Part shown: in pieces, positions 30,302 through 51,823 of the stretch | Position numbering within the stretch: the first letter of the stretch is position 1 | Layout of the letters: the number at the start of each line of letters is the position of its first letter | Assembly (NCBI RefSeq): GCF_002305875.1 | Contig: NZ_CP022098.1 | Location: forward strand, 6,076,001 to 6,140,000 | DNA length: 64,000 nt | DNA from: Cystobacter fuscus | GTDB taxonomy: Bacteria; Myxococcota; Myxococcia; Myxococcales; Myxococcaceae | Direction: 5' to 3' | Translations under genes and position numbers: made by a program | Notes under the pieces: generated by a model | The model's input: the letters and a program-made list of their open reading frames with translations, nothing else | Database searches by the model: none | Told to the model about the DNA's origin: nothing

Positions 30302-33300
30302 ATGGCCCCTTCCGACGCCTCATCCGGGACCCTCGAGTTCTCCACTCCGCTCCTCTGCCAACAGCTCTGGAATGGCGACTACCAGGTGTTTCCCGTGGCC
30401 GCGCCCGCCCTGACGAGCCATGCGTCCACCCTCGAGGCGTGCCTCGCGGAGCAGCGGCTGTTCCTCGAGGAGCACCTCGCCCGGATCGAGCCCGAGCAGC
30501 TCGCCCGGTTCTCCTTTCCCGAGCGGATCCGGCTGGAGATGATGGAGATCCGGGTGGCGCGCGCGGATCTCCCCAAGCGGCTCGCCACCTCCACGCTCGT
30601 CGAGTTGGCCGCGGTCGTCGTCCCGCTCGCGGCCGAGACCTGGGTCTTCGTCCCCGCGTTGGATCACACCGTCTTCGTGGGCCCGGCCCAGGACGTGCGC
30701 GAGACCGTGCGCGCCGACTTGGAGCGGTTGCTCGCCGCGCGGGAGTTGAGTGCTCCCGACTTCCTGCGGCTCCTACCTCCCCGGACCGTGACGCTCGAGA
30801 CCCTGGCGCTCACGCTCCGGCGCGAGGAGGCGGGCGACAAGGCCCTCAAGGCCCGGAAGAAGCTGGAGGAGAAGCTCCAACGCGACCAGGCCCATGAAGT
30901 GCTCCTCTCCGTGTCCGTGCCGCTGCACGACCGCGAGGACGCGCGCCATGGGCCACCGCTCCTGGGCCGGGACACCGAGCTCGCCTTGCTGTCCACCCTC
31001 GTGGGCGGTGAGAAGCGGCAGGGCGTGTTGCTCGTGGGTCCGGAACGGGTGGGCAAGACGGAGCTGCTCCAGGCGTGGATGCGCGCCGAGCGCAAGGCGG
31101 GCCGCCCGCGGCGGGTGTATGCGACGAGCGGCTCACGGCTCATCGCCGGCATGTCTGGCTTCGGCCAGTGGCAGGAGCGCGTCCTGCGGGTGATGCGCGC
31201 CGCGCGGGAGCTCGACGCCGTCCTCTTCTTCGAGAACCTGGGCGAGCTGCTCGCCCAGCACTCCACGGAGTCCGTCAACATCCCCGGCGTGATGAAGCCC
31301 TTCCTGGAGGAGGGCAGGGTGCGGCTGCTCGGGGAGCTCACCTCCGAGTCACTCGACCTCCTGGAGAACCAGCACCCGGGCTTCTTCTCCCTGCTCGCGC
31401 GCGTGCGCCTGGAGCCCCTGAGCACGAAGCAGACCCGGGAGGCGTTGCGCGCGCGGGCCGCCTGGCAGCGGCAGGCGGAGCCCTCGCGGCCCCAGTTGGC
31501 CGAGGACGCGGTGGCGCCCCTCGTGGAACTGGCCGAGCGCTATCTCCCCGGTGGCGCGATGCCCGGCAAGGCGGTGCGGCTGTACGAGGAGCTGCGCGCG
31601 AGCCTCCATCAGGTGCGCACGGGTGATGGCCAGGTGCCCCTGCTCACCCGGGAGCGGCTGTACTCGCTCTTCAGCCTCAAGACGGGCGTCCCCGAGTTCC
31701 TCCTGCGCGAGGATCGCGCCCTGCTCGCCACGGACGTCGAGGCGTACTTCCGTCGCCAGCTCGTGGGGCAGGAGATGGCGGTACGCCGGGTGGTGGAGAC
31801 GCTGTGCATGGTGAAGGCGGGGCTCCAACCCCAGGGCAAGCCGCTGGCCACCTTCCTCTTCGTCGGTCCCACCGGGGTCGGGAAGACGGAGCTCGCGCGG
31901 CTGCTCGCCACGTTCCTCTTCGGCTCACCGGAGCGGATGTTCCGCTTCGACATGAGCGAGTTCATGGACGCCTGGGCCGCCGAGCGGCTCATCCGAGGCA
32001 GTGCCCGGGGGCCCGGACTGCTCACGCGGCGGGTGCGCCAGCAGCCCTTCTGCGTGCTCCTGCTCGACGAAATCGAGAAGGCCCATCCCGCCGTGTTCGA
32101 TCTGCTGCTCCAGGTCTGCGGGGAAGGGCGGCTCACCGACACCCAGGGCCAGACGGCCTGGTTCCACAATGCCCTCATCATCATGACGAGCAACCTCGGC
32201 GTCGCGCACCGCCGCTCCCCGATGGGCATTGGCGCCGCGCCGGTGGATGACACCGAGCACTACCTGCGCGAGGTGCACCGACACTTCCGTCCCGAGTTCG
32301 TCAACCGCATCGACCAGCTCATCGCCTTCCACCCGCTCACCCCCGCCCAGGTGGAGCAGGTGGCCCGGCTCACCGTGGACAAGCTGCGACAGCGGCGCGG
32401 CCTGCTCCAGCGCGGGCTCGATCTCCAGGTGCCGCCCGAGCTCCTGTCCTCGCTCGCCGCGTCCGGCTATCACGAGGCCCATGGTGCACGAGCGCTGCGC
32501 CGGCATCTGGATCAACAGCTCGTCGTGCCCCTGGCCCGCACGCTCTCCGCCGCGGGCCCCGAGGCCCAGGGCGGTGAAGTCACCCTCCACTCCGGTCCCC
32601 AGGGGCTCTCGGTGACGTTGTCCCCGGGCAGCCCCAGGCAGACGCGTCATCAACTGGAGCGGGTGGAAGCCCTCCAGGCCGATCGGCGGGAACTCGACGC
32701 CATCCTCCGGATGGATGCCGTGGAGCGGCTCGTGGAGCAGGTACGCTTCCTCGTGGCCCAGCTCGCGCAAGGGGTCCGTCCGAACCGGGGTCCCGAGGCC
32801 CTCTCCCTCGGGCAACTGCACCATGAGCACAGCCGGCTCGATCTGCTCTGGACCCAGGTCCAGCGGCTGCGCGCGGCGCTCTCGGCCGCCGAGGAGCTGG
32901 CGCTGCTGGCCCTCTTCGAGCAGCAGGACATCTCCACCTTCGTGGAGGACGCCCGGGAGCAGTCGCGTGCCTTGCGCCGGATGCTGCCCTCGGTGCTGCT
33001 CGCCTTGCAGCCCCAGCGCGATGGCATCACGCTCATTGTCCAGGAGGCGGGGGAGACGCGTGCGCTCGACGCCTGGCTGTCGCCGCTGCTCGAGGAGTTG
33101 CCCCGCCGCGGGTGGGTGGCCGGCGGCCGCCTCTCCGTCAGCCGTCACCACAAGGACGACAAGCGCCGGTGGCGCGACGAGGTCCTCTCCGTCGAGGCGT
33201 TGTCGCGGGCCCTTGGCGAGCCCGAGCGCGCGTTCCACGAGGTGTTGTTGTCGGTCAGTGGCCCCCATGCCGGCTCGTTCCTGGCGCTCGAGGCCGGACT

Positions 33301-33652
33301 GCACCGCTTTCCCCCCACGCCACGCGACGAGCCCGTCCTGCTCACGGTCCAACCCGTGGCGATGAGGCCCCACCTGTCCCAGAAGGAGCTGGAGCTGCCC
33401 GCCATCGCCCCCCCCGCGCCCGTTCCCCTCAAGGAGCTGCGATTGATGCCCGCCGTGCGTGAGTACCAGCCCGGGGGAGACGTCGTCCTTTGCGATGGCG
33501 CGCGAACCGTCTCGCTTGGTGCCCGGGGGTATTTCCAGGACTGGGAGCACCTCCTGCTCGAACACCTCCTGCACCTGGAGCGCTCGGGAAGCTTCGATCC
33601 CGAGAGCGCTCCCTCCTTCGTCCTCGACGTGCTCCGGGCCGCCACGCCATGA
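30302..33652 (+). CDS. Hsp100-like AAA+ ATPase fused to a release-factor-like domain (protein 1 of 3)
   Basis: 1116 residues. N-terminal ~190 residues are a unique domain shared in outline with the next two proteins, not a ClpN domain. D1 (~240-440) has Walker A GPERVGKTE but a broken Walker B (VLFFEN). D2 (~510-760) is canonical: Walker A GPTGVGKTE, Walker B VLLLDEIEKAH, sensor MTSN, arginine-finger region PEFVNRID and sensor 2 GARALRR. From ~784 the chain resembles RF1/RF2: a coiled N-part, GITLIVQEAGETRALDAW, and SFLALEAGLHRF like the release-factor E-x-G-x-H-R block. The place of the catalytic GGQ reads PGGD (residues 1057-1060). ATG 3 codons after an A/T-rich leader; its stop overlaps gene 2 by 4 bases. 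Compared with ClpB (~860 aa), this is an enlarged paralogue. Function is inferred as an unfoldase-like or ribosome-linked motor. Confidence 0.8.
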   Translation: MAPSDASSGTLEFSTPLLCQQLWNGDYQVFPVAAPALTSHASTLEACLAEQRLFLEEHLARIEPEQLARFSFPERIRLEMMEIRVARADLPKRLATSTLVELAAVVVPLAAETWVFVPALDHTVFVGPAQDVRETVRADLERLLAARELSAPDFLRLLPPRTVTLETLALTLRREEAGDKALKARKKLEEKLQRDQAHEVLLSVSVPLHDREDARHGPPLLGRDTELALLSTLVGGEKRQGVLLVGPERVGKTELLQAWMRAERKAGRPRRVYATSGSRLIAGMSGFGQWQERVLRVMRAARELDAVLFFENLGELLAQHSTESVNIPGVMKPFLEEGRVRLLGELTSESLDLLENQHPGFFSLLARVRLEPLSTKQTREALRARAAWQRQAEPSRPQLAEDAVAPLVELAERYLPGGAMPGKAVRLYEELRASLHQVRTGDGQVPLLTRERLYSLFSLKTGVPEFLLREDRALLATDVEAYFRRQLVGQEMAVRRVVETLCMVKAGLQPQGKPLATFLFVGPTGVGKTELARLLATFLFGSPERMFRFDMSEFMDAWAAERLIRGSARGPGLLTRRVRQQPFCVLLLDEIEKAHPAVFDLLLQVCGEGRLTDTQGQTAWFHNALIIMTSNLGVAHRRSPMGIGAAPVDDTEHYLREVHRHFRPEFVNRIDQLIAFHPLTPAQVEQVARLTVDKLRQRRGLLQRGLDLQVPPELLSSLAASGYHEAHGARALRRHLDQQLVVPLARTLSAAGPEAQGGEVTLHSGPQGLSVTLSPGSPRQTRHQLERVEALQADRRELDAILRMDAVERLVEQVRFLVAQLAQGVRPNRGPEALSLGQLHHEHSRLDLLWTQVQRLRAALSAAEELALLALFEQQDISTFVEDAREQSRALRRMLPSVLLALQPQRDGITLIVQEAGETRALDAWLSPLLEELPRRGWVAGGRLSVSRHHKDDKRRWRDEVLSVEALSRALGEPERAFHEVLLSVSGPHAGSFLALEAGLHRFPPTPRDEPVLLTVQPVAMRPHLSQKELELPAIAPPAPVPLKELRLMPAVREYQPGGDVVLCDGARTVSLGARGYFQDWEHLLLEHLLHLERSGSFDPESAPSFVLDVLRAATP

Positions 33653-36600
33653 ACCTGACCCTCGCCGTCTACCAGAGCCGGAGTGCCTCGGGGACCATGC
33701 GGTGGACCACGCTCGGACTCGGTTCGTATACCCGGAGCCGTGAGGGAAAGAGCGCGGTCAAGCTTCAACAGAAGCTCGTGGAGGATCTGCGCGGCCTCCT
33801 GGGAGAGCTGCCCCCACGTGAGCTGGCGTGCTTCCAGTTGCCTCGCGGCATCCGGCTGGAGCGCGTGCAGTTGGAGCTGGATTTCAAGCGCATGCGCTCG
33901 GGAACCGATACGCCCCGGCTGTCCGGCCTGTTTCCGTTGATCCTCGAGCCGCGCTGGCGCACCCGGAGCGAGCCCCTGTTGATCGCCTACCATCCCGCGC
34001 GCCAGCAGGAGTGGTTCGCCGTCGAGGCGGGCCAGTCCCTGGAGGAGCAGGCGAAGCTCTACTTCACCCACGCCTGGGCGCGGCTGGAGTCCGAGGAGCT
34101 CGAAGCGCTGCGCTCCAACCGCAAGGACAGCCTCAAGGCGTTCTCGTTCGTCGCCCAGCCTCCGACACTGCTCGACCAGCTCGGTGGGAAGAAGGGCCCC
34201 TGGTCGGACCTGGAGGTGGAGGATCGACCCGGCAAGGGCAAGAAGCGCCCGAAGAAGGGGAGTGGCACCCGGGTGCTCCACACCCTGGGCACCCATCTCA
34301 CGCTCCAGGCGGCCGAGGGCTCGTTGGCGATCGGCATGCCCCGTGTGCCCTATCGCGAGCAATTGCAGTTGCTGCTCGGTGGAGAGCGGCGCACGCCGGT
34401 GTTGCTTGTCGGGCCCCCGGGGTGTGGCAAGCGGACCCTGCTCAAGCACTTCGTCGCCGATCAGCTCGACGCCGATGGCTTCCAGGCCCATCGCAACCTC
34501 GACAAGGTGACCGAGGTGTGGACGATCGCCGGCAAGCGGATCATCGCCGGTATGAGCTACGTCGGGGATTGGGAGCAGCGCTGCCTCCAGGTGCTCGAGG
34601 ACGCCAGGGGAGGGCGCCGCATCCTCTTCGTCGAGGATCTCCAGTCCTTTGGCCTCCTGGGCCGCACGCGGGACAGTGACACCCACCTCGCGCTGTTCTT
34701 CCAGGGGGCGCTCGCTCGGGGAGAGATCACCCTGGTGGGCGCGGTGACGCCCGAGCAGCTCCAGCGGCTGGAGTCGGACGCGCCATCCTTCGCCGCGCTC
34801 TTCACCCAGGTGCACGTGCGCCCGACGAGCGCCGACGAGACGCTGCGCATGTTGCTGCACGAGGCGCGCGAGCTGGAGTCCAAACACGCGCTGTCCTGGC
34901 ATCCCCTGTTGTTCCCCGTGCTGCTCGAACAGGCCTCGTCCCTGTTCCCCGGCGCCGCGCTGCCGGGCAAGGCGTTGGATCTGCTGCGCGAGCTGGCCAC
35001 GGGCTCCCAGCGCGAGGGTCGGACGCTCGGCGTGGAGGAGCTCTTCACGCACCTGGCGGGCCGCACGGGGCTGCCGTCCACCCTGCTCAGCGCCCGGGAG
35101 CCCCTGGCGCCCGAGGAGGTTCACGAGGCCCTCTCGCGCAAGGTGATGGGCCAACCGGACGCCGTGCGCGAGGCGTGCGATCTCGTCGCGCGCATCCATG
35201 CCGGGCTCACCGATCCCCTCAGGCCCTACGGCGTCTATCTCTTCACCGGCCCCACCGGCACGGGCAAGACGGAGCTCGCGCGCGCGCTGGCCAGCTACCT
35301 GTACGGCGACGCCTCGCGGATGATCCGGCTCGACATGGCCGAGTTCCAGACGCCGGACGCCGTCGCCCGGCTCACCGGGGATCCGTGGCGACCCGAGGGC
35401 CATCTGACCCGGCTCATCCGCGAGCAGCCCTTCTCGCTCGTGTTGTTGGATGAGATCGAGAAGGCCCACTCCTCGCTGCTCTACCTGCTCCTGCAGCTCT
35501 TCGACGAGGGCCGCCTGACGGACGCCTCGGGCGACACGGCGGACTTCACGCATACCGTCATCGTGATGACGAGCAACCTGGGCGCCCGGCGCAAGCCGCC
35601 CGTGGGCATCGGAGAGCCGGACGCGCGCACCTTCGCGCTCGAGGCGGACCGGGCCGTGCGCGACTTCTTCCCCCCCGAGCTCTTCAACCGCATCGATCGC
35701 ATCGTCCACTTCTCGCCGCTCTCGCGCGAGGTGGGGGAGAAGGTCGTCGAGAAGGAACTCGCGCGGCTGCTCGCGAGGCAGGGGCTCACCTCGCGCAACA
35801 TCTTCGTGTCCGCGGACGACGCGGTGAAGCGGCGCATCGTGGAGGAGGCCTTCGATGCCCGCCTGGGCGCGCGGCCCCTCAAGCGCTACCTGGAGGAGCA
35901 CGTGGGCCAGGTGCTCTCCGACGCCATCATCCGCGGTCCCCAGTCCCTCTTGCGCCTGTTCCAGCTCTACACCCGCGAGGAGCGCTTCGAGGTCCAGGCC
36001 GACGCGCTCATCCCCCGCGAGCCCGTGGCCGAGGGCTTCGCGCTGGAGCCCCTCCTGGAGCTACCCATCTCGGGCTTGCGCGAGAAGCTGCTCGAGGCCC
36101 ACGAGGCCGTGCGCGCCATGCGCGAGAGCGAGGCGCTCGGTGCCCTGTCCGAGCAGGTCCGCTTCCACCTGGAGCGGTTGCAGGCCGGTGAGCGCGAACA
36201 CGCCGAGTCGCTCTACACGCTCGACGCCATGCGCCTGTACCTGGAGCACTTCGCCACCCAGCTCGAGTCGCTCGCCCGCGCGCCCGAGGAAGAGGCCCGG
36301 GAGATGATCGAGGCGCAGCAGTTCAACCTCTTCGATCGCCGGGCGCTCGCCCCGGTGCGGACCGCGACCCGCGAGCAACTGCTCGATGCGCTGGCCGAGG
36401 TGTACTTCCTCCAACGCGTCCTCCGGGGACTCGCCCGGCCGGATCAGCACACCGTGCTGCTGGAGCTGCTTCCGCTGGGACAGTGGCGCCGGGGCGCGGC
36501 CTCCGGCTCGCTGCTCACCCGGTGGTTGTGCACGGCCTACGCCCACTCGCGCGGGGCGATCGAGTCCTTCGCCGCGCACCTGCCCGGAGGCGCCGTGGTG

Positions 36601-37086
36601 TCCGGGGGCTTGCGCCAGCTCCGGGAGTTCCTGCACGCCTCCACCGTGGAGCCGGTGCACGCCGCCATCAAGCTGGTGGGTCCGGGCATCCGTCCCTTCC
36701 TCGAGGGTGAGAGCGGGCTGCACGTCTGGCAATCCTCGGGGCGGCTGCCGGAGATCGTGAAGGTGCGCGTCCATGACGCCCAGGCCCCCGCGCCCGCGGT
36801 GCTGCTCGCGGGACATGGCGCCCGGCTCCAGGCCTTCCACCAGGCGCGGCAGGAAGGTGTGCGCCCCCTGCCCGAGGATCCCGAGGCCGCCATGCCCGTG
36901 GTCCGGGCCTACCGCTTCGAGCCTCCCACGCGTCAGGGATTGGCGGAGCTGGAGCTGGACGACTACCTGCTCACCTACAGCGGCACCCACCGGGTGCGCT
37001 CTCCCGCCGAGGCCCTGCCCGTGCTGTGGCGGTTGCGGATGAGCCAGAATCCGGCGGACCCCGAGCGGGGAGGGCGCCATGAGTGA
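33649..37086 (+). CDS. Hsp100-like AAA+ ATPase fused to a release-factor-like domain (protein 2 of 3)
   Basis: 1145 residues, same architecture as protein 1. N-terminal ~190 residues include LACFQLPRGIRLERVQLEL, aligning to LARFSFPERIRLEMMEI of protein 1. D1: Walker A GPPGCGKR (last Thr/Ser replaced by Arg, ~255), pore-1-like GMSYVGDWEQR and Walker B ILFVED (~325). D2: GPTGTGKTE (~534), LVLLDEIEKAH (~600), PELFNRID, GARPLKR. The tail (~810-1145) has TVLLELLPLGQWRRGAASGS and IRPFLEGESGLHVWQS, matching the release-factor PCRF block, and YSGTHRVRS where GGQ would be. The ATG overlaps the previous stop (ATGA), and its own stop overlaps the next ATG by 8 bases. Frame upstream of 33649 lies within gene 1. 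Confidence 0.8.
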   Translation: MNLTLAVYQSRSASGTMRWTTLGLGSYTRSREGKSAVKLQQKLVEDLRGLLGELPPRELACFQLPRGIRLERVQLELDFKRMRSGTDTPRLSGLFPLILEPRWRTRSEPLLIAYHPARQQEWFAVEAGQSLEEQAKLYFTHAWARLESEELEALRSNRKDSLKAFSFVAQPPTLLDQLGGKKGPWSDLEVEDRPGKGKKRPKKGSGTRVLHTLGTHLTLQAAEGSLAIGMPRVPYREQLQLLLGGERRTPVLLVGPPGCGKRTLLKHFVADQLDADGFQAHRNLDKVTEVWTIAGKRIIAGMSYVGDWEQRCLQVLEDARGGRRILFVEDLQSFGLLGRTRDSDTHLALFFQGALARGEITLVGAVTPEQLQRLESDAPSFAALFTQVHVRPTSADETLRMLLHEARELESKHALSWHPLLFPVLLEQASSLFPGAALPGKALDLLRELATGSQREGRTLGVEELFTHLAGRTGLPSTLLSAREPLAPEEVHEALSRKVMGQPDAVREACDLVARIHAGLTDPLRPYGVYLFTGPTGTGKTELARALASYLYGDASRMIRLDMAEFQTPDAVARLTGDPWRPEGHLTRLIREQPFSLVLLDEIEKAHSSLLYLLLQLFDEGRLTDASGDTADFTHTVIVMTSNLGARRKPPVGIGEPDARTFALEADRAVRDFFPPELFNRIDRIVHFSPLSREVGEKVVEKELARLLARQGLTSRNIFVSADDAVKRRIVEEAFDARLGARPLKRYLEEHVGQVLSDAIIRGPQSLLRLFQLYTREERFEVQADALIPREPVAEGFALEPLLELPISGLREKLLEAHEAVRAMRESEALGALSEQVRFHLERLQAGEREHAESLYTLDAMRLYLEHFATQLESLARAPEEEAREMIEAQQFNLFDRRALAPVRTATREQLLDALAEVYFLQRVLRGLARPDQHTVLLELLPLGQWRRGAASGSLLTRWLCTAYAHSRGAIESFAAHLPGGAVVSGGLRQLREFLHASTVEPVHAAIKLVGPGIRPFLEGESGLHVWQSSGRLPEIVKVRVHDAQAPAPAVLLAGHGARLQAFHQARQEGVRPLPEDPEAAMPVVRAYRFEPPTRQGLAELELDDYLLTYSGTHRVRSPAEALPVLWRLRMSQNPADPERGGRHE

Positions 37087-39388
37087 CAAGAGCCTGCGCG
37101 TCTACTTCACCACCCACCATGATGGCCGGCTCACGGGGCAGCTCCTGCCCGTCTGGGACAGCTTCTTCGACAAGCCGCCTCCCTCCGCCTACGGCACGAG
37201 CGAGCCCGAGGTCCTCTCGCTGCTGGAGACCCAGGTGCGGCAGTTGCTGCGCGAGGATGACGCCGCGATCGAGCGCTTCCTCTGGGAGGAGGAGCTGGAG
37301 GCCCGGACGATCACCGTGGAGATCCATCCCCAGACGGTGCACAAGAAGCGGTCGGTCATCTCCCAGGCGCTCATTCCCCTGCGGCTCACCTACGTCTACG
37401 GGCGGATGGCGGGCGGCGCCTGGCGCGTGCGGGTGCCGCGCTTCGACTGGTCCTTCGTGGTGGAGGATCTCTCCATCGCGCGGGACGTGTTGCAGAACGC
37501 GCTGAGCACCGCGCTGCTCGGGGAGAAACCCAAGGGCCTCTATGACTTCCGCCACGAGGGCGAGGAGTACGTCCGGGCGTGGGATCCGCTCGGTGCGCGG
37601 CGCGAGGTCCGCGGTGGCGCCCGGCGGCCTCCGCCCCCCGAGGTGCTCGAGCAGGTGGGCGAGGAGCTGACGTCGCGCGCCCTGGGCGGCCGGCAGCCGG
37701 CCCTGGTGTACGACGCCGAGGCGATGCGCGAGTGGTTGGAGCTGGCCCAGCGCCGGCCCCCTCCGTCGCTGTTGCTCGTCGGAGGCACGGGCACGGGCAA
37801 GACGAGCCACGTGTCGATGCTGGCGCGGCGGATCGCCGAGCGGCGGCGCGAGGACAAGACGGTGCATCTGCCCGACATCTGGCGCACCAGCGCCGAGCGC
37901 ATTGTCGCGGGCATGGTGTACCTGGGGATGTGGCAGGAGCGCTGCTTGAAGCTCATCGACGCGCTGTCACACGAGGAGGACTACCTCTTCGTGGATCGGC
38001 TCACGTCCCTGCTCGCGCCCCAGCCGGATGGCTCATCGATTGGAGATCTGCTCCTGCCGGCGGCGATGAGCGGGGAGATCTCCCTCATCGCCGAGTGCAC
38101 CGAGGCCGAGCTCGAGCGCTGCCAGCGGCGCTTCCCCGAGGCGCTGCGGCCCTTCCGCGTCCTGCGCATCGAGCCGCCCCCGGCCGCGCGGATGCCCGAG
38201 CTCATGCAGCGCTACCAATCCGTGCGGCGCAGCCGGGTGAGCATCCACCCCGTGGGGCTGCGGCAGCTCGTGGCCCACCTGGACACGTTCCAGCGCGACA
38301 GCCTGTTTCCGGGCAAGGCGTTCCGCTTCCTCGATTGGCTGGAACAGCAGGGCGAGCGCGGCCAGTCCCGGACGCTCTACCCGCGCGATGCCTCCGCGGC
38401 CTACGCGCGCTACTCGGGCCTGCCGCTCCAGCTCATCAGCGACGAGGTCCCCGCCGAGCGCCAGACGCTCGCGGCGCAGCTCCAGAAGGGCGTCATCGGT
38501 CAGGAGCGGGCGTGTGAGCTGGCCGCCGGAGTGCTCGCGCGGTTCAAGGCCGGGCTGAATGATCCGGACAAGCCCGTGGGCACGCTGCTGTTCGCCGGAC
38601 CCACGGGGGTGGGGAAGACGGAGCTGTCCAAGCAACTGGCGCGCACGCTCTTCGGCGACGAGCAGCGGATGATCCGCCTGGACATGTCCGAGTACATGCT
38701 GCCCGGCTCGGCCCAGCGGTTGATGGAGGTGGGCCCGGGCATCACCAGCCTCGCCGAGCGGGTGCGGCAGCAGCCCCTGTCGCTCGTGCTCTTCGACGAG
38801 CTGGAGAAGGCGCACCCGGAGGTCTTCGATCTGCTCCTGGGCATCCTGGGGGAGGGGAGACTGACGGATGGGCTGGGGCGCCTGGTGGACTTCCGGATGA
38901 CGGTGGTGTGCATGACGAGCAATCTCGGCGTGGTGCACTCGGAGCCGGCGGGGTTCGGGGCGGAGCGGGGCGCGGAGGACTTCACGCGGGCCATCCGCCA
39001 GGCCTTCCGGCCGGAGCTGTTCAACCGCATCGATCACATCATCCCGTTCCGTCGCTTGTCGGAGGCGGACGTGCTGCGCATTGTGGACCTGGAGCTGGAG
39101 AAGGCGGCGTCACGGGCGGGCCTCTTGCGGCGCGGGCTGAAGCTGGTGGTGGAGCCGGATGCGCGGGCATGGCTGGCCCGGCACGGGTATGAGCCCCAGT
39201 TGGGGGCCCGGCCCTTGAAGCGGCTCATCGAGGCGAAGGTGATGGCGCCCATCGCCGTGCGGCTCGCGGCCCATCCGGAGCTGGAGGGCGTGCTGCTGCC
39301 CGTGGTCGTGGCCGGCAGCGCGGCCGAGCGCGGATTGCGGCCCGAGTACCGCGCCCTCGCCACGCTTCTCGACCAACCCGTCACTTAG
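37079..39388 (+). CDS. Hsp100-like AAA+ ATPase (protein 3 of 3, no release-factor tail)
   Basis: 769 residues, the shortest of the three. The N-terminal ~190 residues are distantly similar to those of proteins 1 and 2 (ERFLWEEELEARTITVEI aligns to the FPxxIRLE block). D1 keeps Walker A GGTGTGKTS (~235) and GMVYLGMWQER, but Walker B is YLFVDR. D2 is canonical: GPTGVGKTE (~507), LVLFDELEKAH (~571), MTSN, PELFNRID and GARPLKR. The chain ends about 90 residues after sensor 2, without the release-factor-like extension of the others. Translational overlap with gene 2 and shared architecture suggest a heteromeric complex of the three. Confidence 0.85.
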   Translation: MSDKSLRVYFTTHHDGRLTGQLLPVWDSFFDKPPPSAYGTSEPEVLSLLETQVRQLLREDDAAIERFLWEEELEARTITVEIHPQTVHKKRSVISQALIPLRLTYVYGRMAGGAWRVRVPRFDWSFVVEDLSIARDVLQNALSTALLGEKPKGLYDFRHEGEEYVRAWDPLGARREVRGGARRPPPPEVLEQVGEELTSRALGGRQPALVYDAEAMREWLELAQRRPPPSLLLVGGTGTGKTSHVSMLARRIAERRREDKTVHLPDIWRTSAERIVAGMVYLGMWQERCLKLIDALSHEEDYLFVDRLTSLLAPQPDGSSIGDLLLPAAMSGEISLIAECTEAELERCQRRFPEALRPFRVLRIEPPPAARMPELMQRYQSVRRSRVSIHPVGLRQLVAHLDTFQRDSLFPGKAFRFLDWLEQQGERGQSRTLYPRDASAAYARYSGLPLQLISDEVPAERQTLAAQLQKGVIGQERACELAAGVLARFKAGLNDPDKPVGTLLFAGPTGVGKTELSKQLARTLFGDEQRMIRLDMSEYMLPGSAQRLMEVGPGITSLAERVRQQPLSLVLFDELEKAHPEVFDLLLGILGEGRLTDGLGRLVDFRMTVVCMTSNLGVVHSEPAGFGAERGAEDFTRAIRQAFRPELFNRIDHIIPFRRLSEADVLRIVDLELEKAASRAGLLRRGLKLVVEPDARAWLARHGYEPQLGARPLKRLIEAKVMAPIAVRLAAHPELEGVLLPVVVAGSAAERGLRPEYRALATLLDQPVT

Positions 39389-39525
39389 CGGGGGAGGGAG
39401 GCGCGCGCTTCGAGGCGTTGCCGCCACCCACGCAAGGGGAGGTGGAGCGGCTGTTGAGGGTGGTGCGCCATCAGGTGCTGTGGCTATGCTCCGACGAGAC
39501 GGACCCGCCGAGGATAGAGCACCCC

Positions 39526-39885
39526 ATGCCTCCAGCTGCTCGAATCAGTGACATGCATACCTGCCCGAAATCGGAGCCGGGCCCGGTGCCACATGTGGGA
39601 GGGCCCGTGTCGGTGGGTGAGCCAACGGTGCTCATCGGCTACATGCCCGCGGCGCGAGTGGGTGACATGGCCGTGTGCGTGGGGCCTCCGGACTCCATCT
39701 CCCAGGGCGAATCGACGGTGATCATCGGCGGCAAGCCCGCGGCGCGGTTGGGAGATCCCACCTCGCATGGCGGAGTGGTGGTCGCGGGCTGTCCGACGGT
39801 GCTCATCGGCGTTCCCGCTCAATCCAAGTGCATGGCGGATGCGTCGTCAGGGGGCGCTCCCTTCGTGACGAAGGCCGGGTCGTGA
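39526..39885 (+). CDS. PAAR-domain protein
   Basis: This 119-residue protein is almost entirely a PAAR spike: it begins MPPAARISDMHTCPK, followed by three repeats of the PAAR type (PTVLIGYMPAARVGDMAV, STVIIGGKPAARLGDPTSHGGVV, PTVLIGVP). PAAR proteins sharpen the VgrG tip of type VI systems and carry effectors. It is a separate gene, not fused to the RHS protein that starts 22 bases later. A longer in-frame reading from 39418 is rejected because PAAR proteins begin at this Met. Confidence 0.92.
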   Translation: MPPAARISDMHTCPKSEPGPVPHVGGPVSVGEPTVLIGYMPAARVGDMAVCVGPPDSISQGESTVIIGGKPAARLGDPTSHGGVVVAGCPTVLIGVPAQSKCMADASSGGAPFVTKAGS

Positions 39886-39906
39886 TCGTTCACCAGGACC
39901 ATCGGC

Positions 39907-42825
39907 ATGCTGAGAATCCATGACACGCAGTTGTCCACGCTGCGCAAGCACTTCCTGGCCGAGTCCTTGGCCCGGTCGTTCCAATCGTCCGCGCTGAGCT
40001 CCTCCGTGGAGTCCGCGACCGGGGATGTGCTGGTGGCGGATGCCAAGGGCAACCAGGCCCGTTACACGTTGGACGGGCATGGGTTCGTCAATGGTGTGAC
40101 GAGCCCCCTGGGGCGCCGGTGGCGGCTGGAGAACGACTCCCAGGGAAAGCTGCTCGCCCTGACCGATCCCAAGGGCCTGCGCCTCGGTCTGGCCTATGAC
40201 TCGCGAGGCCTGCTCTCCAGCGCAGCGCATGGCTCCCACAAGCTCTTCGACGTGGGCTACGACAAGCAGGGGCTGCTCAACGAGCTCATCTACCCCGATG
40301 GGACCCGGCGCAGCTACGAGTACAAGACGCCGGAGTTGATCTCGGTCGTGGTCAACCGGCTCGGCGCCGAGGTGGAATACGAGTACGGCCCGGGGGGATT
40401 GCTCGAATCCATCTGGAATGGGAATGGCCACCAGACACGCTTCGAGTATGGCCGGTGGAGCCGCCCTGATCGTGTCATCCGCGCGGACGGCTCGCACGAG
40501 TCGTATGTGTACAACTCCCGTGGGCTCGTCGAGCGGATCCTCACCGGCTCCGAGCTGCTGGCCCACGTCGAATACGACGACCAGGATCAGCCCGTCGTCA
40601 TCACCTACGGCGATGGAGAGAGGCTCTCGCGCGTCTATGCGGGGGGCAGGCTCGTCGAGGCGTCCGCCGCGGATTCCACCGTCAAGTATGTGTACGACGA
40701 CAAGGGCCGTGTCCTCGAGGAGCACCAGGATGGGCTCGTCGTCCGGTATGCCTATGACGAGTCGGGTGCACTGACGGGGCTGACGTATCCCTCTGGCGAG
40801 CAGGTCGAGTTCACCCAGGATGCAGACCATCGTCCTTCGAGCATCCGCACCTGGACGGGGGAGTTCTACCGCTTTGGATATGGCGCGGATGAGCGGACGA
40901 TCGAGCTCTCCGGTCCCAATGATCTGACCACCGTCATCCGGCAATCACAGCTCGGGCGGCCCGTCTCGGTGGTGACCCGGCGCTCCAACTTCGCCACGGC
41001 TCGGGATCTCTTCTCGTATACATGCGAGTATGACGCCGAGGCCCGGCTGCGATCGTGCAAGGATTCTCACTTCGGGAGCCGGCGGTTCACCTACGATGCC
41101 GAAGGGCAGCTTCTCGAGGTCGATTCCGAGAACCCCAGCCAGAGAGAGGGCTTCGCATACGATCACGCGGGGAACCGTGTGCGTTGGAACGAGCAGCGCG
41201 CCACCTTTGATTCCCTCGATCGGCTGATCCAGCAGGGGGACACCTGGTGTCGCTACGATGCACGCGGAAACCTCGTGTCCCTGCGCTCCGCCGAGGGCGA
41301 GTGGATCTACCGATACAACCTTCGCAACCTGCTCGTGGAGGCGCGCGGTCCCGGAGGGAAGAGGGTCTCCTTCGGATACGACGCGCTCGGGCGCCGCATC
41401 TGGAAGCGCACAGCGACGGCGGAGGTCCGCTACGTCTGGGCGGGTGAGACGCTCATCGGTGAGGTGGAGAAGTCCGGTGGTCGGACCCTCACCCGTGACT
41501 TCCTCTACATCCCGGGGACGTATACGCCCCTGGCCATGCGTGTGGATGGCCGCGTCTACTCCTACCACACGGATCACCGGGGCGCTCCGATCCGCCTCAC
41601 GAACGAGGTCGGCTCCGTCGTCTGGGCCGCGGAGTACAGCGCCTATGGCCAGGCGTCGGTCCTGGTGGACCGGATCTCCAACCCCCTCCGTCTTCCTGGC
41701 CAGTACCACGATGAAGAGACGGGGCTGCAGTACAACCGCTTCCGGTACTACTCGCCGCTGCTGGGGCGCTACCTCACAGAAGATCCCACCACGTACCTGG
41801 GTGGGCTCCATTTCTACAGCTACGCCAACAACGATCCGATCAACTCGGCGGATCCGCAGGGGCTTTGGAGCTGGAGTGGGGTCGCCTCGGCGGTGGCAGG
41901 TGCCGTGGTCGGTATCGCCGTCACGGCTGCGGTCATCCTGACGGCACCGGTGTCATTGCCGGCCCTGGCCGTGACGGCAGCTGCGGTCGTATTGGGAGGT
42001 GCTGCCGCGGGCGCCGTGGGCTTCGGTCTGAACGAGGCGCTCAACCAGACGGACTTCTGCTTCCTCTGCATTCTCAAGGAGATGGGCCGGGGCGCGCTGA
42101 TCGGTGCCGTTGCTTCATTGCCCTTCGCCTTCCTGCCCGCGACGGCGGGCGTGTTGGCCTTCATGGGCGCGGGGGCCGCGAGCGGCGCCCTCGGATACAT
42201 CGGCGACTGGATCACCAATCCGGGGGCGGAGTGGAGTTGGTCGGCCTTTGGCTGGTCCGTGGGACTGGGCGCTGTCACGGCGGGTGCAGGGCGGTATATC
42301 GCGGGCAAGTACACACAATGGAAGCAGAGTCGGAACGCGCCTCGCGAGGCGCCGCCCCCGGAGACTCCACAACCGGCCGCCCCCCCGAGTCCGCCGCAAC
42401 CTCCTCCGCCGAAGACCTACAGTAGGGCGGACGCCAAGGAGGTGTTCGTGAATTCCGAAGGCAGGCAGGGGCCGGGCAAGAACGTGGGTCATGCTGGCGA
42501 TCACGTTCCTCTGAACAACGAGAACCCCGCGACGCTTGCTCAAAACCGCCCCAATAAGGCGAATACAACGACCTATCGCTCGGGCAGCCAGGCAGAAAGG
42601 GACCTTCGGGACATCATGAATGCCAACAAGACGGATATCGATGCGCTGCCACCCGATGGCATCACCACGGCGGGCGGCGAGCACACAATCTCCCAGCAGC
42701 GCACCGGATTCAATTCGGAGTATGGCCAACCTGCCCAGCCCGTCGTGTTCAATCAGGTGACCTGGAGGGTGTGCCGGCTTCCGGATGGAAGCCTGCACCT
42801 GATGCATTTCTCTCCGAAGCTCTAG
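39907..42825 (+). CDS. RHS-repeat polymorphic toxin with novel C-terminal domain
   Basis: 972 residues. Residues ~40-620 are YD/RHS repeats (e.g. RYAYDESGALTGLTYPSGEQV and the family-typical core end GRYLTEDPTTYLGGLHFYSYANNDPINSADPQGLW). A strongly hydrophobic region (~650-800; AVVGIAVTAAVILTAPVSL and others) follows, which could insert in or cross a membrane. Then a Pro-rich linker (~815-836) and a C-terminal domain of ~135 residues with NVGHAGDHVPLN, TYRSGSQAERDLRDIMNANKTDIDALP, GGEHTISQQRTGF and SLHLMHFSPKL. This is the presumed toxin, family not recognised. The RHS core is short compared with usual (~1000+ aa). No VgrG or T6SS core gene is seen near it. Confidence 0.9.
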   Translation: MLRIHDTQLSTLRKHFLAESLARSFQSSALSSSVESATGDVLVADAKGNQARYTLDGHGFVNGVTSPLGRRWRLENDSQGKLLALTDPKGLRLGLAYDSRGLLSSAAHGSHKLFDVGYDKQGLLNELIYPDGTRRSYEYKTPELISVVVNRLGAEVEYEYGPGGLLESIWNGNGHQTRFEYGRWSRPDRVIRADGSHESYVYNSRGLVERILTGSELLAHVEYDDQDQPVVITYGDGERLSRVYAGGRLVEASAADSTVKYVYDDKGRVLEEHQDGLVVRYAYDESGALTGLTYPSGEQVEFTQDADHRPSSIRTWTGEFYRFGYGADERTIELSGPNDLTTVIRQSQLGRPVSVVTRRSNFATARDLFSYTCEYDAEARLRSCKDSHFGSRRFTYDAEGQLLEVDSENPSQREGFAYDHAGNRVRWNEQRATFDSLDRLIQQGDTWCRYDARGNLVSLRSAEGEWIYRYNLRNLLVEARGPGGKRVSFGYDALGRRIWKRTATAEVRYVWAGETLIGEVEKSGGRTLTRDFLYIPGTYTPLAMRVDGRVYSYHTDHRGAPIRLTNEVGSVVWAAEYSAYGQASVLVDRISNPLRLPGQYHDEETGLQYNRFRYYSPLLGRYLTEDPTTYLGGLHFYSYANNDPINSADPQGLWSWSGVASAVAGAVVGIAVTAAVILTAPVSLPALAVTAAAVVLGGAAAGAVGFGLNEALNQTDFCFLCILKEMGRGALIGAVASLPFAFLPATAGVLAFMGAGAASGALGYIGDWITNPGAEWSWSAFGWSVGLGAVTAGAGRYIAGKYTQWKQSRNAPREAPPPETPQPAAPPSPPQPPPPKTYSRADAKEVFVNSEGRQGPGKNVGHAGDHVPLNNENPATLAQNRPNKANTTTYRSGSQAERDLRDIMNANKTDIDALPPDGITTAGGEHTISQQRTGFNSEYGQPAQPVVFNQVTWRVCRLPDGSLHLMHFSPKL

Positions 42826-42848
42826 CGCCTCGTTGAAAGGAAGCGCGC

Positions 42849-43601
42849 ATGACCGAGAACATGGAAGTGAAGTTCGAGAGCCTTTCCCGGCAGGTTGCCC
42901 GTCTGGACGTGAACCGGCTGACCAGCCCCTTTGGCTTGACCGTCGATCCCCGGACACAGATCCACCACCTGGGCTACCACGAGGCCCCGCTCTTCCGTTT
43001 GGAGCAGCCCTTTTCGCCGGACGATGCCTGGGGCGTGGAGCCCCTGTCTTCAGGCCGGTTCGTTCGTGCGCAACCGGAAGCCGGCCAGAAACTTCCGCAG
43101 GCCTACCTCGACTGGCTTCGAGGCAGTGCCGTGAGCCGGGGTCTGGAGATCCCCTGGTCGCTTCCTCCGGGAAGCTATCTGCTGGTCCGAACCGCGCGTC
43201 CTCTCCATAAGGTCCAGAAAGTCTTGTTGGGCAACGAGCTGGTTCCCGCCACTCCGAACATCCGCGTCTTGCGCGAGCAGAAGCCCGTGTACTCCTGCGT
43301 CGTGGGTGCGCGCCTCCAGGAGCCTCCAGTGCTCGATCAACCCCTGATCGGCCTCTCTGTCCTCAACTATGACGGCTCGACCCGGCAGCAGGGGATGCTG
43401 TTCTTCTCGAGTGTGGAAGCCGCACCGCATGGCCTGCCGGCCGGGCAGGAGCTGGTCCTGATCGTTCCCCTCGAGGGACAACTGGTCTTCGACAACATGG
43501 GGTTCTTCTCGGCCAAGGGGGAGGTCGAGTCCCGCAGGCGTTGGAAGGAAGAGCTGGCACACGAGTTCGTGACCTGGTGCACGGATCCATCGCGGGCGTG
43601 A
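42849..43601 (+). CDS. candidate immunity protein for the RHS toxin
   Basis: 250-residue cytoplasmic-type protein directly after the RHS gene, in the position where immunity proteins usually are. It begins MTENMEVKFESLSRQVARLDVNRLTSPFGL and ends in EELAHEFVTWCTDPSRA. No transmembrane segments or known domain can be recognised. Its TGA overlaps the next ATG by one base (TGATG). The immunity role rests on position only; a chaperone or DUF1795-like function is possible. Confidence 0.5.
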   Translation: MTENMEVKFESLSRQVARLDVNRLTSPFGLTVDPRTQIHHLGYHEAPLFRLEQPFSPDDAWGVEPLSSGRFVRAQPEAGQKLPQAYLDWLRGSAVSRGLEIPWSLPPGSYLLVRTARPLHKVQKVLLGNELVPATPNIRVLREQKPVYSCVVGARLQEPPVLDQPLIGLSVLNYDGSTRQQGMLFFSSVEAAPHGLPAGQELVLIVPLEGQLVFDNMGFFSAKGEVESRRRWKEELAHEFVTWCTDPSRA

Positions 43602-44494
43602 TGGTGGCGAACGCCGGACAGAGACTCATCGTCGAGGTGCGCTGGGGCGCGAACGCGGGCCGCAAGGCGGTGGTCGAGCCGGGGCGGGTGCTGCGTGTCG
43701 GCCGCGCGGAGCCGGCGCAGCTGGTGGTTGCCGACGACACCGGCGTGTCCGCTCCGCACTTCGAGCTGGCCTGGGACGGAGCGACGTGCCGCTTGAAGCA
43801 TCTGGCAAGCGGAGCGGACACGCTGCTGGACGGGCAGCGCGTGGATGAAGCCGAGGTCTCCCACGGAGCCTGGGTGCGCGCGGGCCAGACCGACTTCTCC
43901 GTGTACTTCGAGTGCAACACCCCACCGCCTCCGCCCGCTGGCCCCGAATCCGCCGAGCGGTTGGCGCGCAAGGCTCGCGCGTTGGAGGTGCTCTCCGGGC
44001 TGACCGAGCCTCTCTTCGCGGTGCTGGATGCGGCGCGGGACGAGCGGATCCCCGTCCTGCTCCGCGAGTCGGTGGAGGAGTATCGCTCCCTCTATGAGGG
44101 AGCCCAGGGCGAGGCGATGGCGGAGATCGCGCCCTACGTGGTCCATCTGCCCGGGGACTCGCGACTGTTGCGGTCGCTGGTCCAGGAAGGGTGGGGGAGG
44201 AACTGGGGGATCTTCCTGTCCAGCCAACGGCCCTTCAAGGACGTGCGGCGCCACCTCCGCAAGTTCCTCATGGTGAAGGACTCCGTGAGCCGGGATCTCT
44301 ACTTCCGCTTCTACGATCCGCGGGTCCTCCGGGTCTTCCTCCCCACGAGCTGGCCCGAACAGAACCAGGCGCTCTTCGAGGGAGTCCGGGCCTACTGGGC
44401 GGAGGGGGATGACGGCACGAGCCTGCTCCGCTTCGCCTTGAAGGAGCAGGCGCTCCACCGGGAGCTCGTTCCGCTCGACGAGAGCCCGGCATAG
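43601..44494 (+). CDS. FHA-DUF4123 adaptor protein
   Basis: 297-residue protein. N-terminal FHA-like domain (~5-100): EPGRVLRVGRAEPAQLVVADDTGVSAPHFELAWDG has the GR...S..H pattern of phosphothreonine-binding FHA modules. A Pro-rich hinge (PPPPPAG) leads to a DUF4123 domain (~125-290; LFAVLDAARDERIPVLLRE, WGIFLSSQRPFKDVRRHLRKFLMV, RDLYFRFYDPRVLRVFLPT). DUF4123 proteins are adaptors that bind VgrG/PAAR and load effectors. With the PAAR and RHS genes this is a typical effector module. Coupled to the preceding gene by TGATG. Confidence 0.85.
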   Translation: MVANAGQRLIVEVRWGANAGRKAVVEPGRVLRVGRAEPAQLVVADDTGVSAPHFELAWDGATCRLKHLASGADTLLDGQRVDEAEVSHGAWVRAGQTDFSVYFECNTPPPPPAGPESAERLARKARALEVLSGLTEPLFAVLDAARDERIPVLLRESVEEYRSLYEGAQGEAMAEIAPYVVHLPGDSRLLRSLVQEGWGRNWGIFLSSQRPFKDVRRHLRKFLMVKDSVSRDLYFRFYDPRVLRVFLPTSWPEQNQALFEGVRAYWAEGDDGTSLLRFALKEQALHRELVPLDESPA

Positions 44495-44599
44495 ACCGTG
44501 CTGGAGGGGCCCGCTCGCGTCTTTTCGTGGCAGGGAAGCCATCGGTGTCCAATTCCAGACCTCGAGGCCAATCCACGTTTTACTGGTATAAGACAGGGC

Positions 44600-46558
44600 A
44601 TGAGCCCTTCGTTCCGCGGCCGTGCGCGCCCCGTGGTGGTGTCCTCCCTGTTGACGTCCCTGCTCTGGGGTTGTGGTCCCCAGGAGGCGGTGCCGGAAGA
44701 TGACGCCGCCGCGCCGCTCGGTGAGCTCCGGGCGGCGGCGGTGACGGGGCACAAGGCCTTCCGGGTGATGACGTACAACGTGCGCGGGCCGCTGGACACG
44801 GGCGTGCGCGCCTGGCCCAACCGCAAGGCGGCCGTCATCCAGCGCATCCTCGCCAACAACGCGGACATCGTCGGCGTGCAGGAGGCGCAGAGCCCCTCGG
44901 GCGGCCCCAGCATCCCCGCGGATCTCATCGCGGGCCTCACCGGCACCGACAAGCCCTACGGCGTCTACAACCCGGGCGGAGGCAGCCCCAAGCTCATCTT
45001 CTTCAAGAAGAGCCGGTTCGAGATCGCCCCCGAGGTGGGCAGCGGCAACGAGGCGCTGGTCAACCCCTATGCCGCCTCCGCCGAGTGCTTCAGCCATGCC
45101 GAGGGCAAGAAGATCGCCTGGGTGGGCCTGCGCGACTTGAGCACGGGCCAGGTCTACTTCGTGGCCAACACCCACTTCGCCTACTCGGCCATCTGCTCGC
45201 TGGGGCGCCAGAAGGAGGCCGCGCAGATGGGCAACTTCCTCGTCACGAAGCCGGCGGGCCTGCCCGTGGTGGCGATGGGGGACTTCAACACCGACGCCCA
45301 GTCGCCCTCCACGCCGGACGAGAGCACCATGGAGGATCTGGAGTCGCTCGGGCACCTGTACCGCACGGCGCGCTTCGACGGCACCACCCGCGAGGAGGAC
45401 GCCACCTTCAACAATGCCTGGCAGGGGGGCACGCCCTCCACGAAGTACTCCCGGCTGGACTACATCCTCCACAGCGGCGGGGAGATCACCTCCACCTCGC
45501 CCTCCATCGATCGCACCGAGAGCGGAGGCTTGACGCCCTCGGATCACTTCGCGGTGCTCGCCACCATCCGCCCGTCCATCTTCGCCTCGTGCTCCACCCT
45601 GACGACGGTGCCCTCGGGCACGTCCGCCTCCACGCAGCTGTTCTTCGCGGACGTGACGGGCGATGGCTGCGCGGACCGCATCTCGTGGAATTACACCGCG
45701 GGCGAGGGCGAGACGTGGGTGGCGAAGTCCGGGTGTGACGGAAGCTTCGCCGCCGCGGTGAAGAACGAGGGCGCGGTGAGTGTCGTCGCCACCACCCGTT
45801 TCTTCTTCGCGGACGTGACGGGCGATGGCTGCGCGGACAAGATCCTCTGGCGGCCCACCCTGGCGGACGGCGAGGTGCGCATCTACCCGTCCCGGTGCGA
45901 TGGCACCTTCGGCGACCGCGTCGCCTTTACCGCGGCGGCCAGCACCAGTGAGTCCACGCGGCTGTTCTTCGCGGACGTGACCGGGGATGGGGCGGCGGAT
46001 CTGCTGCGCTGGAACCCCAAGGAGCGCTCGGGCGCCTTCGAGACCTTCATCGCCCGGAAGGGCACCACCCCGTCCTTCGGCGCGGCGGTGCGCAGCACGG
46101 ACGGGGCCAACACCAGCGAGGACACGCGCGTGTACTTCGCGGACGTGGACGGGGATGGCAAGGCGGACCGTCTCACCTGGAACCCGGGCCAGGACGGGGG
46201 CCGCACGCGCGTCTACCGCTCCGCCGGCACCGGCGCCTTCTCCTTCTCGTTCGCGCACGACGAGGGCACCAGCGGCGTGGACACCTCGCGCTTCTACTTC
46301 GCGGACGTGGATGGGGATGGCAAGGCGGACAAGATCTTCTGGCGGCCTACCTTCCGCCAGGGCCGCATGCAGATCTACCTCAGCTCCGGCACCGACTTCG
46401 GCAGCAGCCCGCTGATGGACAACACGGGCTTCAGCGGCTCGGAGAACACCGACTTCTTCTTCGCCAACATCGACGGCCGCGGCGGCGCCGACAAGGTGTA
46501 CTGGAACCCCGGTGCCTACGACGGCGCCAGCAAGGTGTTCCGCGCCCTCGCGCAGTAG
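44600..46558 (+). CDS. endonuclease/exonuclease/phosphatase-family lipoprotein with six FG-GAP repeats
   Basis: 652 residues. Lipobox in LTSLLWGC. Residues ~50-330 form an EEP domain: MTYNVRG, GVQEAQS, VANTHFA, GDFNTDAQ, SRLDYILHSG and PSDHFAV mark the metal and catalytic positions. From ~335 there are six FG-GAP/VCBS-like repeats of ~50 residues (e.g. LFFADVTGDGCADRISW, YFADVDGDGKADKIFW), which form a beta-propeller. The enzyme may cut DNA, phospholipid or inositol phosphate; substrate is not decided by these motifs. It stands alone after the RHS module, start at the ATG within a typical signal peptide. Confidence 0.85.
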   Translation: MSPSFRGRARPVVVSSLLTSLLWGCGPQEAVPEDDAAAPLGELRAAAVTGHKAFRVMTYNVRGPLDTGVRAWPNRKAAVIQRILANNADIVGVQEAQSPSGGPSIPADLIAGLTGTDKPYGVYNPGGGSPKLIFFKKSRFEIAPEVGSGNEALVNPYAASAECFSHAEGKKIAWVGLRDLSTGQVYFVANTHFAYSAICSLGRQKEAAQMGNFLVTKPAGLPVVAMGDFNTDAQSPSTPDESTMEDLESLGHLYRTARFDGTTREEDATFNNAWQGGTPSTKYSRLDYILHSGGEITSTSPSIDRTESGGLTPSDHFAVLATIRPSIFASCSTLTTVPSGTSASTQLFFADVTGDGCADRISWNYTAGEGETWVAKSGCDGSFAAAVKNEGAVSVVATTRFFFADVTGDGCADKILWRPTLADGEVRIYPSRCDGTFGDRVAFTAAASTSESTRLFFADVTGDGAADLLRWNPKERSGAFETFIARKGTTPSFGAAVRSTDGANTSEDTRVYFADVDGDGKADRLTWNPGQDGGRTRVYRSAGTGAFSFSFAHDEGTSGVDTSRFYFADVDGDGKADKIFWRPTFRQGRMQIYLSSGTDFGSSPLMDNTGFSGSENTDFFFANIDGRGGADKVYWNPGAYDGASKVFRALAQ

Positions 46559-46585
46559 GTAATCAAAGCGCGAGGCGACTTCACC

Positions 46586-46966
46586 ATGAGCATCCTGCTG
46601 ACCTCCACACGATGGCTCGCACTACTAGGCGTGTTGCTGGCCGCTTGTGCTACCTCAACGCCAACTCCGCGCGAGGACGACGAGGTACCTGCGGCGGTGT
46701 CCTCGTGGGAAGAGGCCCGCGCGGAATTGGCCGAGTGGTTCAAGGGCAAGGGGATCGACATTCACGCCTTCACCGTCAGCCTTCCCATCACATTCCACCG
46801 ATGGCTCCACAGTGAAGGGCCCGAGGGCGGCCAGTGGAACGAGGCGTGGCGTCGGTTCCAGGGGCAGAACCCAGGGGCCACTCCGGAGGAGATCTGGCAG
46901 TTCGCGTTCGAGCTCATGTTCTTGTTCAAAGTGAATGCCCCACTCGTGCCCTATTGCCAGGACTGA
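46586..46966 (+). CDS. SitA6-type polymorphic-toxin lipoprotein, short form
   Basis: 126 residues: signal peptide with lipobox (LLGVLLAAC), a short spacer, then a block DIHAFTVSLPITFHRWLHSEGPEGGQWNEAWRRFQ...PGATPEEIWQFAFELMFLFKVN that resembles the C-terminal toxin region of the SitA6 (TIGR02269) lipoproteins. SitA proteins move between myxobacterial siblings by outer-membrane exchange and kill non-immune recipients. Usual length is about 200 residues, so the middle is missing: possibly an internal deletion or a compact variant. Followed at 16 bases by the matching SitI6-type gene. Confidence 0.7.
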   Translation: MSILLTSTRWLALLGVLLAACATSTPTPREDDEVPAAVSSWEEARAELAEWFKGKGIDIHAFTVSLPITFHRWLHSEGPEGGQWNEAWRRFQGQNPGATPEEIWQFAFELMFLFKVNAPLVPYCQD

Positions 46967-46981
46967 ACCGAGAAGCCACGA

Positions 46982-51639: not shown

Positions 51640-51823
51640 TCCCGCCAACTTACTACAGTGAAGCGGTGGGATCCCCGGCATATTGCGGGAGCCCTCCAGG
51701 CAGGAGGACGGCACGGCAGCCCCATGCGAGGCCCCTCTCCCGCCCTGCACCCTTCCTGGGGGGCCGGGTGCTCCCCTGACGACAAGGCGGCTGGCCCTTC
51801 ACCCCGAAGACCCCGCCTTCCGG

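Follow-up and report, generated by a model that had tools for sequence, protein, structure and literature searches.

Genes of the locus

The window analysed here is a stretch of 64,000 nucleotides from the genome of Cystobacter fuscus (contig NZ_CP022098.1, positions 6,076,001 to 6,140,000). Three consecutive genes of this stretch, called C1, C2 and C3, encode paralogous Hsp100-like proteins, each with two AAA modules (D1 and D2). C2 starts with an ATG at 33649, inside a longer open reading frame (ORF, 33490-37086), and shares the four bases ATGA with C1, while the overlap between C2 and C3 is 8 bases long. The coding status of the three genes is supported by their G+C content at third codon positions (GC3 0.89-0.93). 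AAA_2 and ClpB_D2-small domains were found in all three subunits, far over the Pfam cut-offs. The ORF coordinates and the Pfam matches thus bear out an earlier note, made from the DNA sequence, in which this locus was described as three overlapping genes for paralogous double-AAA+ Hsp100 proteins.

The same note proposed that the three proteins share an N-terminal domain different from that of the Clp ATPases. Indeed, the N-terminal domains of C1, C2 and C3 are mutually homologous (hhalign 98.1-99.6%) and Clp_N (PF02861) is not among the Pfam matches of any of them. This N-domain is an orphan, having no relative in Pfam or PDB searches. A HicB-like fold, guessed from its β-β-β-α pattern, was discarded for want of Pfam or PDB support. 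Two characteristics of the locus were overlooked in the earlier note, namely the degenerate D1 modules and the release-factor-like C-termini of C1 and C2 (Table 1).

Table 1. Features of the Hsp100 triplet, of its downstream block and of the single-gene fusion (positions in the window unless stated otherwise; pLDDT, predicted local distance difference test of the AlphaFold2 model)
Feature	Position	Strand	Description	Basis
C1	30302..33652	+	1116 aa, Hsp100-like subunit 1: orphan N-domain, degenerate D1, catalytic D2, release-factor-like C-terminus	Pfam (AAA_2, ClpB_D2-small); orthologues at same position; pLDDT 87.2
C2	33649..37086	+	1145 aa, Hsp100-like subunit 2	Pfam; orthologues at same position; pLDDT 89.5
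C3	37079..39388	+	769 aa, Hsp100-like subunit 3, without C-terminal arm	Pfam; orthologues at same position
C1 D1 Walker-B position	31235..31237	+	Asn312 for Glu	Asn/Asp/His family-wide, no Glu listed in 79 C1s
C2 D1 Walker-B position	34636..34638	+	Asp330 for Glu	Asp in 83/83 C2s
C3 D1 Walker-B position	37997..37999	+	Arg307 for Glu	Arg in 45, Ser in 20 and Asn in 13 of 91 C3s
C1 D2 pore-loop-1 region	31985..32023	+	GYVG tyrosine deleted	Gap in 79/79
C2 D2 pore-loop-1 region	35371..35406	+	GYVG deleted	83/83
C3 D2 pore-loop-1 region	38720..38752	+	GYVG deleted	90/91
C3 AGFG loop	38945..38962	+	Follows D2 sensor 1; ClpA/ClpC have their ClpP-docking loop (IGF/MGFG type) there
C1 loop similar to C3 AGFG	32219-32236	+	After D2 sensor 1
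C2 loop similar to C3 AGFG	35599-35616	+	After D2 sensor 1
C1 C-terminus (~380 aa)	32504..33649	+	RF1/RF2-like (coiled coil and PCRF-like part), GGQ absent	hhalign, PDB profile, Pfam
C2 C-terminus (~400 aa)	35887..37083	+	Homologous to C1 C-terminus, more degenerate	hhalign
PAAR-RHS-unknown-FHA/DUF4123-exo/endonuclease-phosphatase/FG-GAP block	39389-46559		Begins at C3 stop
Single-gene Hsp100-RF2 fusion	2656788-2659700 of the genome contig, outside the window	-		PCRF match

Conservation of the triplet

Close orthologous triplets were found in 13 other genomes by a family-wide search, the identity of C3 ranging from 71 to 96%, and a more distant triplet (about 30% identity) is present in many further genomes, Myxococcus included. 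The relatives compared include Archangium violaceum, A. lansinium, Hyalangium versicolor and Myxococcus vastator. A profile of the D1 region, searched across 84,980 species, led to loci in Myxococcota, Planctomycetota, Verrucomicrobiota, Acidobacteriota, Sericytochromatia and Eremiobacterota, as well as in one metagenome-assembled genome (MAG) of Lysobacterales; several of the source genomes are MAGs, so that single cases may result from misbinned contigs.

After C1, C2 and C3 had been assigned in these loci by subunit-specific models, the complete triplet was recognised in 72 of the 107 fetched loci bearing family members, and its order was always C1-C2-C3. The sole apparent exception (C2-C1) is due to a C3 of 773 amino acids that was misassigned by 2.5 bits. 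The median intergenic gap of the complete loci is -4 nucleotides, and their products have about 1118, 1130 and 764 amino acids. The view of the earlier note that a co-translated Hsp100 triplet is abnormal is supported, and the triplet is conserved as a set. The three genes make up a genuine three-component system, and their arrangement is not due to chance.

The set is also maintained where the operon is not. Fourteen genomes looked as if their locus were incomplete, yet each of them has at least three family members, as a rule two long ones and a short one, and sometimes on separate contigs. In some Planctomycetota the genes are unlinked, a situation that the earlier note had considered contrary to its proposal, but all three members are still found in the genome, which strengthens the idea of a set. 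Since the members are retained without linkage, one functional unit is favoured over operon inertia. A further locus (L055, G033:C9) carries an additional solitary C3 (661 amino acids as called) with 96% DNA identity to the C3 of the window and no adjoining C1 or C2.

Relationship to known Hsp100 proteins

The C. fuscus genome (12.35 Mb, one contig) also holds separate genes for ClpB, ClpA-like and ClpV proteins. When compared with the NCBIfam families of ClpA, ClpB and ClpV, the three subunits obtain about 200-316 bits, whereas the cut-offs are 885-1232 bits. For instance, the scores with TIGR03345 (ClpV/TssH) are 209, 234 and 214 bits (cut-off 884.95); those with TIGR03346 (ClpB) are 286-316 bits (cut-off 1232), and those with the ClpA family are 288-311 bits (cut-off 993). 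In a full-length tree all 75 members form one clade, apart from ClpB, ClpA and ClpV. These scores and trees rule out that the subunits are ClpV or ClpB.

Within the full-length tree, C2-A joins C2-B (support 92) and C3-A joins C3-B (88); C1-A and C1-B lie next to each other at a fork that is left open. The clade is kept in a tree of the AAA core (94/87), in which C2 is split from C1 plus C3 (97/98) and the window-type C3 joins the C3 of the Planctomycetota-Verrucomicrobiota-Chlamydiota (PVC) type (99/96), some deep forks being without resolution. Since members are largely grouped by their position in the operon, these trees indicate that the triplication is ancient, although they leave the precise order of branching undecided.

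The closest resemblance is to ClpA and ClpC. Like them, the subunits have two AAA modules and no M-domain (core of 506-518 amino acids, compared to 644 in ClpB) and a hydrophobic-G-F loop after D2 sensor 1, and the structures that best align with their AAA core are those of ClpC-ClpP. However, three paralogues per system, the lack of Clp_N and the release-factor-like C-terminus are not characteristics of ClpA/ClpC, which have two active modules, each with an aromatic pore loop, whereas here the D1 Walker B is dead and the D2 GYVG loop is deleted. With ClpB/Hsp104 the triplet shares the D2 fold and the ClpB_D2-small domain, but it lacks the M-domain and the GYVG loop and scores far under the ClpB cut-off. 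The Hsp100 architecture is also common to ClpV/TssH, from which the triplet differs by forming a separate clade and by its lack of linkage to type VI secretion system (T6SS) genes.

The AAA modules

Residue statistics were taken over 79 C1, 83 C2 and 91 C3 sequences. D2 shows no variation in any subunit at Walker A, Walker B (DE), the Asn of sensor 1, the arginine finger or the Arg of sensor 2. The earlier note, in which the motor blocks were regarded as intact, was therefore right with respect to D2 but not to D1, where all three subunits have lost the Walker-B Glu. D1 retains the Gly-Lys of its P-loop (4 C2s have Arg in place of Lys) and has an eroded arginine-finger segment (ALERRF).

The pore loops show the opposite distribution. 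The GYVG of D2 is missing, whereas the D1 pore loop has a Tyr in all 91 C3s and in 68 of the 83 C2s, and most C1s have a Phe one position further on. Judging from these residue patterns, the two tiers seem to share the work, D2 providing ATP catalysis and D1 the aromatic grip. A loop of the hydrophobic-G-F/I/L type after D2 sensor 1, defined here as a sequence motif only, is present in 79 of 79 C1s, 81 of 83 C2s and 81 of 82 C3s. The ClpA of C. fuscus has MGFG at this position, but its ClpB and ClpV do not.

AlphaFold2 modelled C1 and C2 with confidence, and their predicted cores match ClpC-ClpP, ClpA and ClpB structures, ClpC-ClpP being the closest. In the VIA-align and Foldseek lists for full-length C1 and C2, the AAA core (residues ~198-787) took up all places, leaving none to release factor structures; these lists are not evidence against a homology to release factors.

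Release-factor-like C-terminal arms

An ExGxHR motif in the C-terminus of C1 first suggested, by eye, domains 1 and 2 of a peptide-chain release factor (RF). When aligned with RF1 and RF2 of related genomes, the C1 C-termini gave a match of 96.2% (hhalign, E 2.6e-9, 190 columns), whereas the N-domains used as controls remained below 1%. A profile of 55 C1 C-termini, searched against all PDB sequences, retrieved almost only RF1 and RF2, the best match being RF2 (E 3.5e-10). In this search the coiled-coil part and the ExGxHR part match separately; since the latter alone matches RF1 with 6.1e-6, the similarity is not a coiled-coil artefact. PCRF is also the most frequent Pfam family in these C-termini (15 of 55), although the C1 of the window (E 7.4e-4, score 19.8) lies under the curated cut-off of 24 bits. 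The second family is Ribosomal_L12 (6 of 55, best E 1.1e-7). The C1 of locus L070, with the motif GVGLKEA, is among those whose C-terminus matches the Ribosomal_L12 C-terminal domain.

The C1 arm is colinear with RF1/RF2 over the domain 1 coiled coil, domain 2 (including ExGxHR) and a remnant of domain 3. It differs from them in being fused to an Hsp100 and in lacking the stop-codon loop and the GGQ motif of peptidyl hydrolysis, which is present neither in C1 nor in C2 C-termini. Judging from these profile comparisons, C1 is a protein that ends in a disarmed copy of a release factor. Exactly one such RF-armed C1 was found in each of 20 genomes (20/20). The C-terminus of C2 is homologous to that of C1 (hhalign 97.4%, E 9.4e-12) but reaches only 27-39% with RF; it too is probably a disarmed release-factor copy.

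A single-gene fusion of Hsp100 and RF2

A PCRF search of the C. fuscus genome detected, besides RF1 and RF2, one Hsp100-like ORF at 2.657 Mb (952-984 amino acids) with a PCRF score of 64.5 bits (cut-off 24). Its C-terminus matches RF2 with E 6.6e-19. Like the triplet, this protein has an Hsp100 core, an RF-like C-terminus and a D2 without GYVG, but it is encoded by one gene, has no N-domain and its RF part is much closer to RF2. The stop-codon (SPF) loop and the GGQ loop are missing in 17 of 17 locus sequences of this fusion, a count in which some genes are represented by more than one overlapping locus. Relatives are present in most Myxococcaceae genomes searched, mostly as one copy each, also where no triplet scored. 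In the core-only tree the fusion has a long branch and its placement with respect to the triplet is not resolved. The presence of GGQ-less RF arms on independent kinds of Hsp100 makes a ribosome-related role more likely.

Possible function

Bacterial Hsp100 rings are generally regarded as homohexamers. Three distinct paralogues kept together across several phyla, even when unlinked, render a heteromeric Hsp100 assembly directly testable; the heteromeric motor considered plausible in the earlier note remains so in view of the conservation of the set, of the N-domain that its members share and of its being neither ClpV nor ClpB. The RF-like arm adds a concrete hypothesis, that of an unfoldase delivered to the ribosome.

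The reading that we prefer, whose chances we judge to be about even, is that of an obligate three-component machine of the ClpA/ClpC kind that would be tethered to the ribosome by dead release-factor arms. C1, C2 and C3 would co-assemble into one mixed ring, as genomic co-occurrence and operon overlap suggest. The D2 tier would hydrolyse ATP, while the aromatic D1 loops of C2 and C3 (Phe in C1) would grip the substrate. Through its dead arms the ring would attach to ribosomes without triggering peptide release, and could then pull nascent chains or bound factors off those that are stalled or stressed. The extracted chains might be passed to ClpP, for which there are two genes in this genome, via the hydrophobic-G-F loops. 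More tentatively, the triplet may represent an undescribed class of ribosome-directed, three-subunit Hsp100s in which dead RF mimics seat an unfoldase ring, in principle a bacterial counterpart of the way in which eukaryotes extract nascent chains by means of Cdc48 during ribosome quality control.

Several points weigh against a ribosome-tethered machine. A motor without the D2 pore loop is less likely to thread its substrate in the ordinary way, and the short hydrophobic-G-F loop could serve another role. There is no conserved partner gene beside the triplet that points to translation. The C2 C-terminus had no direct RF match in Pfam or PDB profile searches, being linked to RF only through C1, and the RF-like domain may owe its retention to an ordinary role in protein-protein contacts.

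The main alternative is a heteromeric Hsp100 chaperone or disaggregase whose RF-derived C-termini would be only oligomerisation or substrate-adaptor modules, without a role at the ribosome. It would fit the loss of the motifs that define RF function (GGQ and stop-codon loop), a C2 arm too diverged for direct RF detection, the orphan N-domains and the lack of translation genes recurrently found beside the triplet. However, the colinear RF architecture kept by C1, the RF-type fusion in two distinct Hsp100 lineages of one genome and the Ribosomal_L12-like matches in some C1s count against it, and we regard it as rather unlikely.

An anti-phage system, or another kind of conflict system that uses AAA+ motors, seems improbable. 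The patchy distribution of the triplet in multicellular bacteria with large genomes, together with its variable flanks, would suit such a system, and the best PADLOC matches are AAA domains of DolB/PDC-M37B. Nevertheless, these matches are limited to the generic D2 P-loop region, no recurrent toxin, nuclease or sensor partner was found, and there is mostly one set of members per genome.

As regards previous work, in the open-access literature we found no earlier description of Hsp100-release factor fusions or of heteromeric bacterial Hsp100s. Clp proteins are not mentioned in a study of release-factor evolution (PMC6514570), and a review of ribosome rescue includes Clp only as ClpXP/ClpAP downstream of tagging (PMC8012679). 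An RF-armed Hsp100 joins two fields that are left unconnected in both papers.

Genes surrounding the triplet

Pfam scans confirmed that C3 is followed, 29 nucleotides further on, by PAAR and RHS genes, an uncharacterised gene and an FHA-DUF4123 gene, from which the earlier note had deduced a dedicated toxin-handling machine. Among relatives with a full triplet, the two closest (95% and 94% DNA identity) are colinear with the window up to the C3 stop (39381 and 39388, respectively) and again from 46968 and 46560; the PAAR/RHS/DUF4123 block is absent from both, and other cargo occupies the same place. Because colinearity breaks at the C3 stop, the PAAR/RHS/FHA-DUF4123 genes are local cargo. Other triplets are followed by genes for β-lactamase, DnaJ-like, S41 peptidase, DUF2378, chitinase-like, superoxide dismutase or xanthine-dehydrogenase-like proteins. 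No flank family recurs beside the triplets across phyla, synteny being only lineage-local.

With respect to T6SS, no structural gene was found among the scanned genes of the window. TssK was found in 9 of 20 triplet-bearing genomes and not seen in the other 11, which include MAGs and are possibly incomplete. C. fuscus has a canonical ClpV near a TssK gene at 3.83-3.85 Mb. No match to the Hsp100 D2 lies within 35 kb of two further T6SS loci containing TssK (~5.92 Mb and ~10.49 Mb). A T6SS/Rhs toxin-handling motor or a ClpV substitute, which the position of the block directly after C3 and the two of three TssK loci without an Hsp100 would favour, is largely refuted by the lack of that block in relatives, the different flanks of all other triplets, the triplet genomes without TssK and the canonical ClpV already present, and we consider it hardly credible.

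Other genes of the window were also inspected. A gene for a DUF2380 lipoprotein and, after it, a Gmx_para_CXXCG gene (46586-47908) are kept in relatives. An ORF of 822 amino acids on the reverse strand (49282-51750) is kept in a close relative, and a Pfam search assigned it to no family. The region 1532-22118 is devoted to arabinose-type sugar utilisation, with two ABC sugar transporters, AraA, an FGGY kinase, GH43 and lectin-bearing glycosidases.
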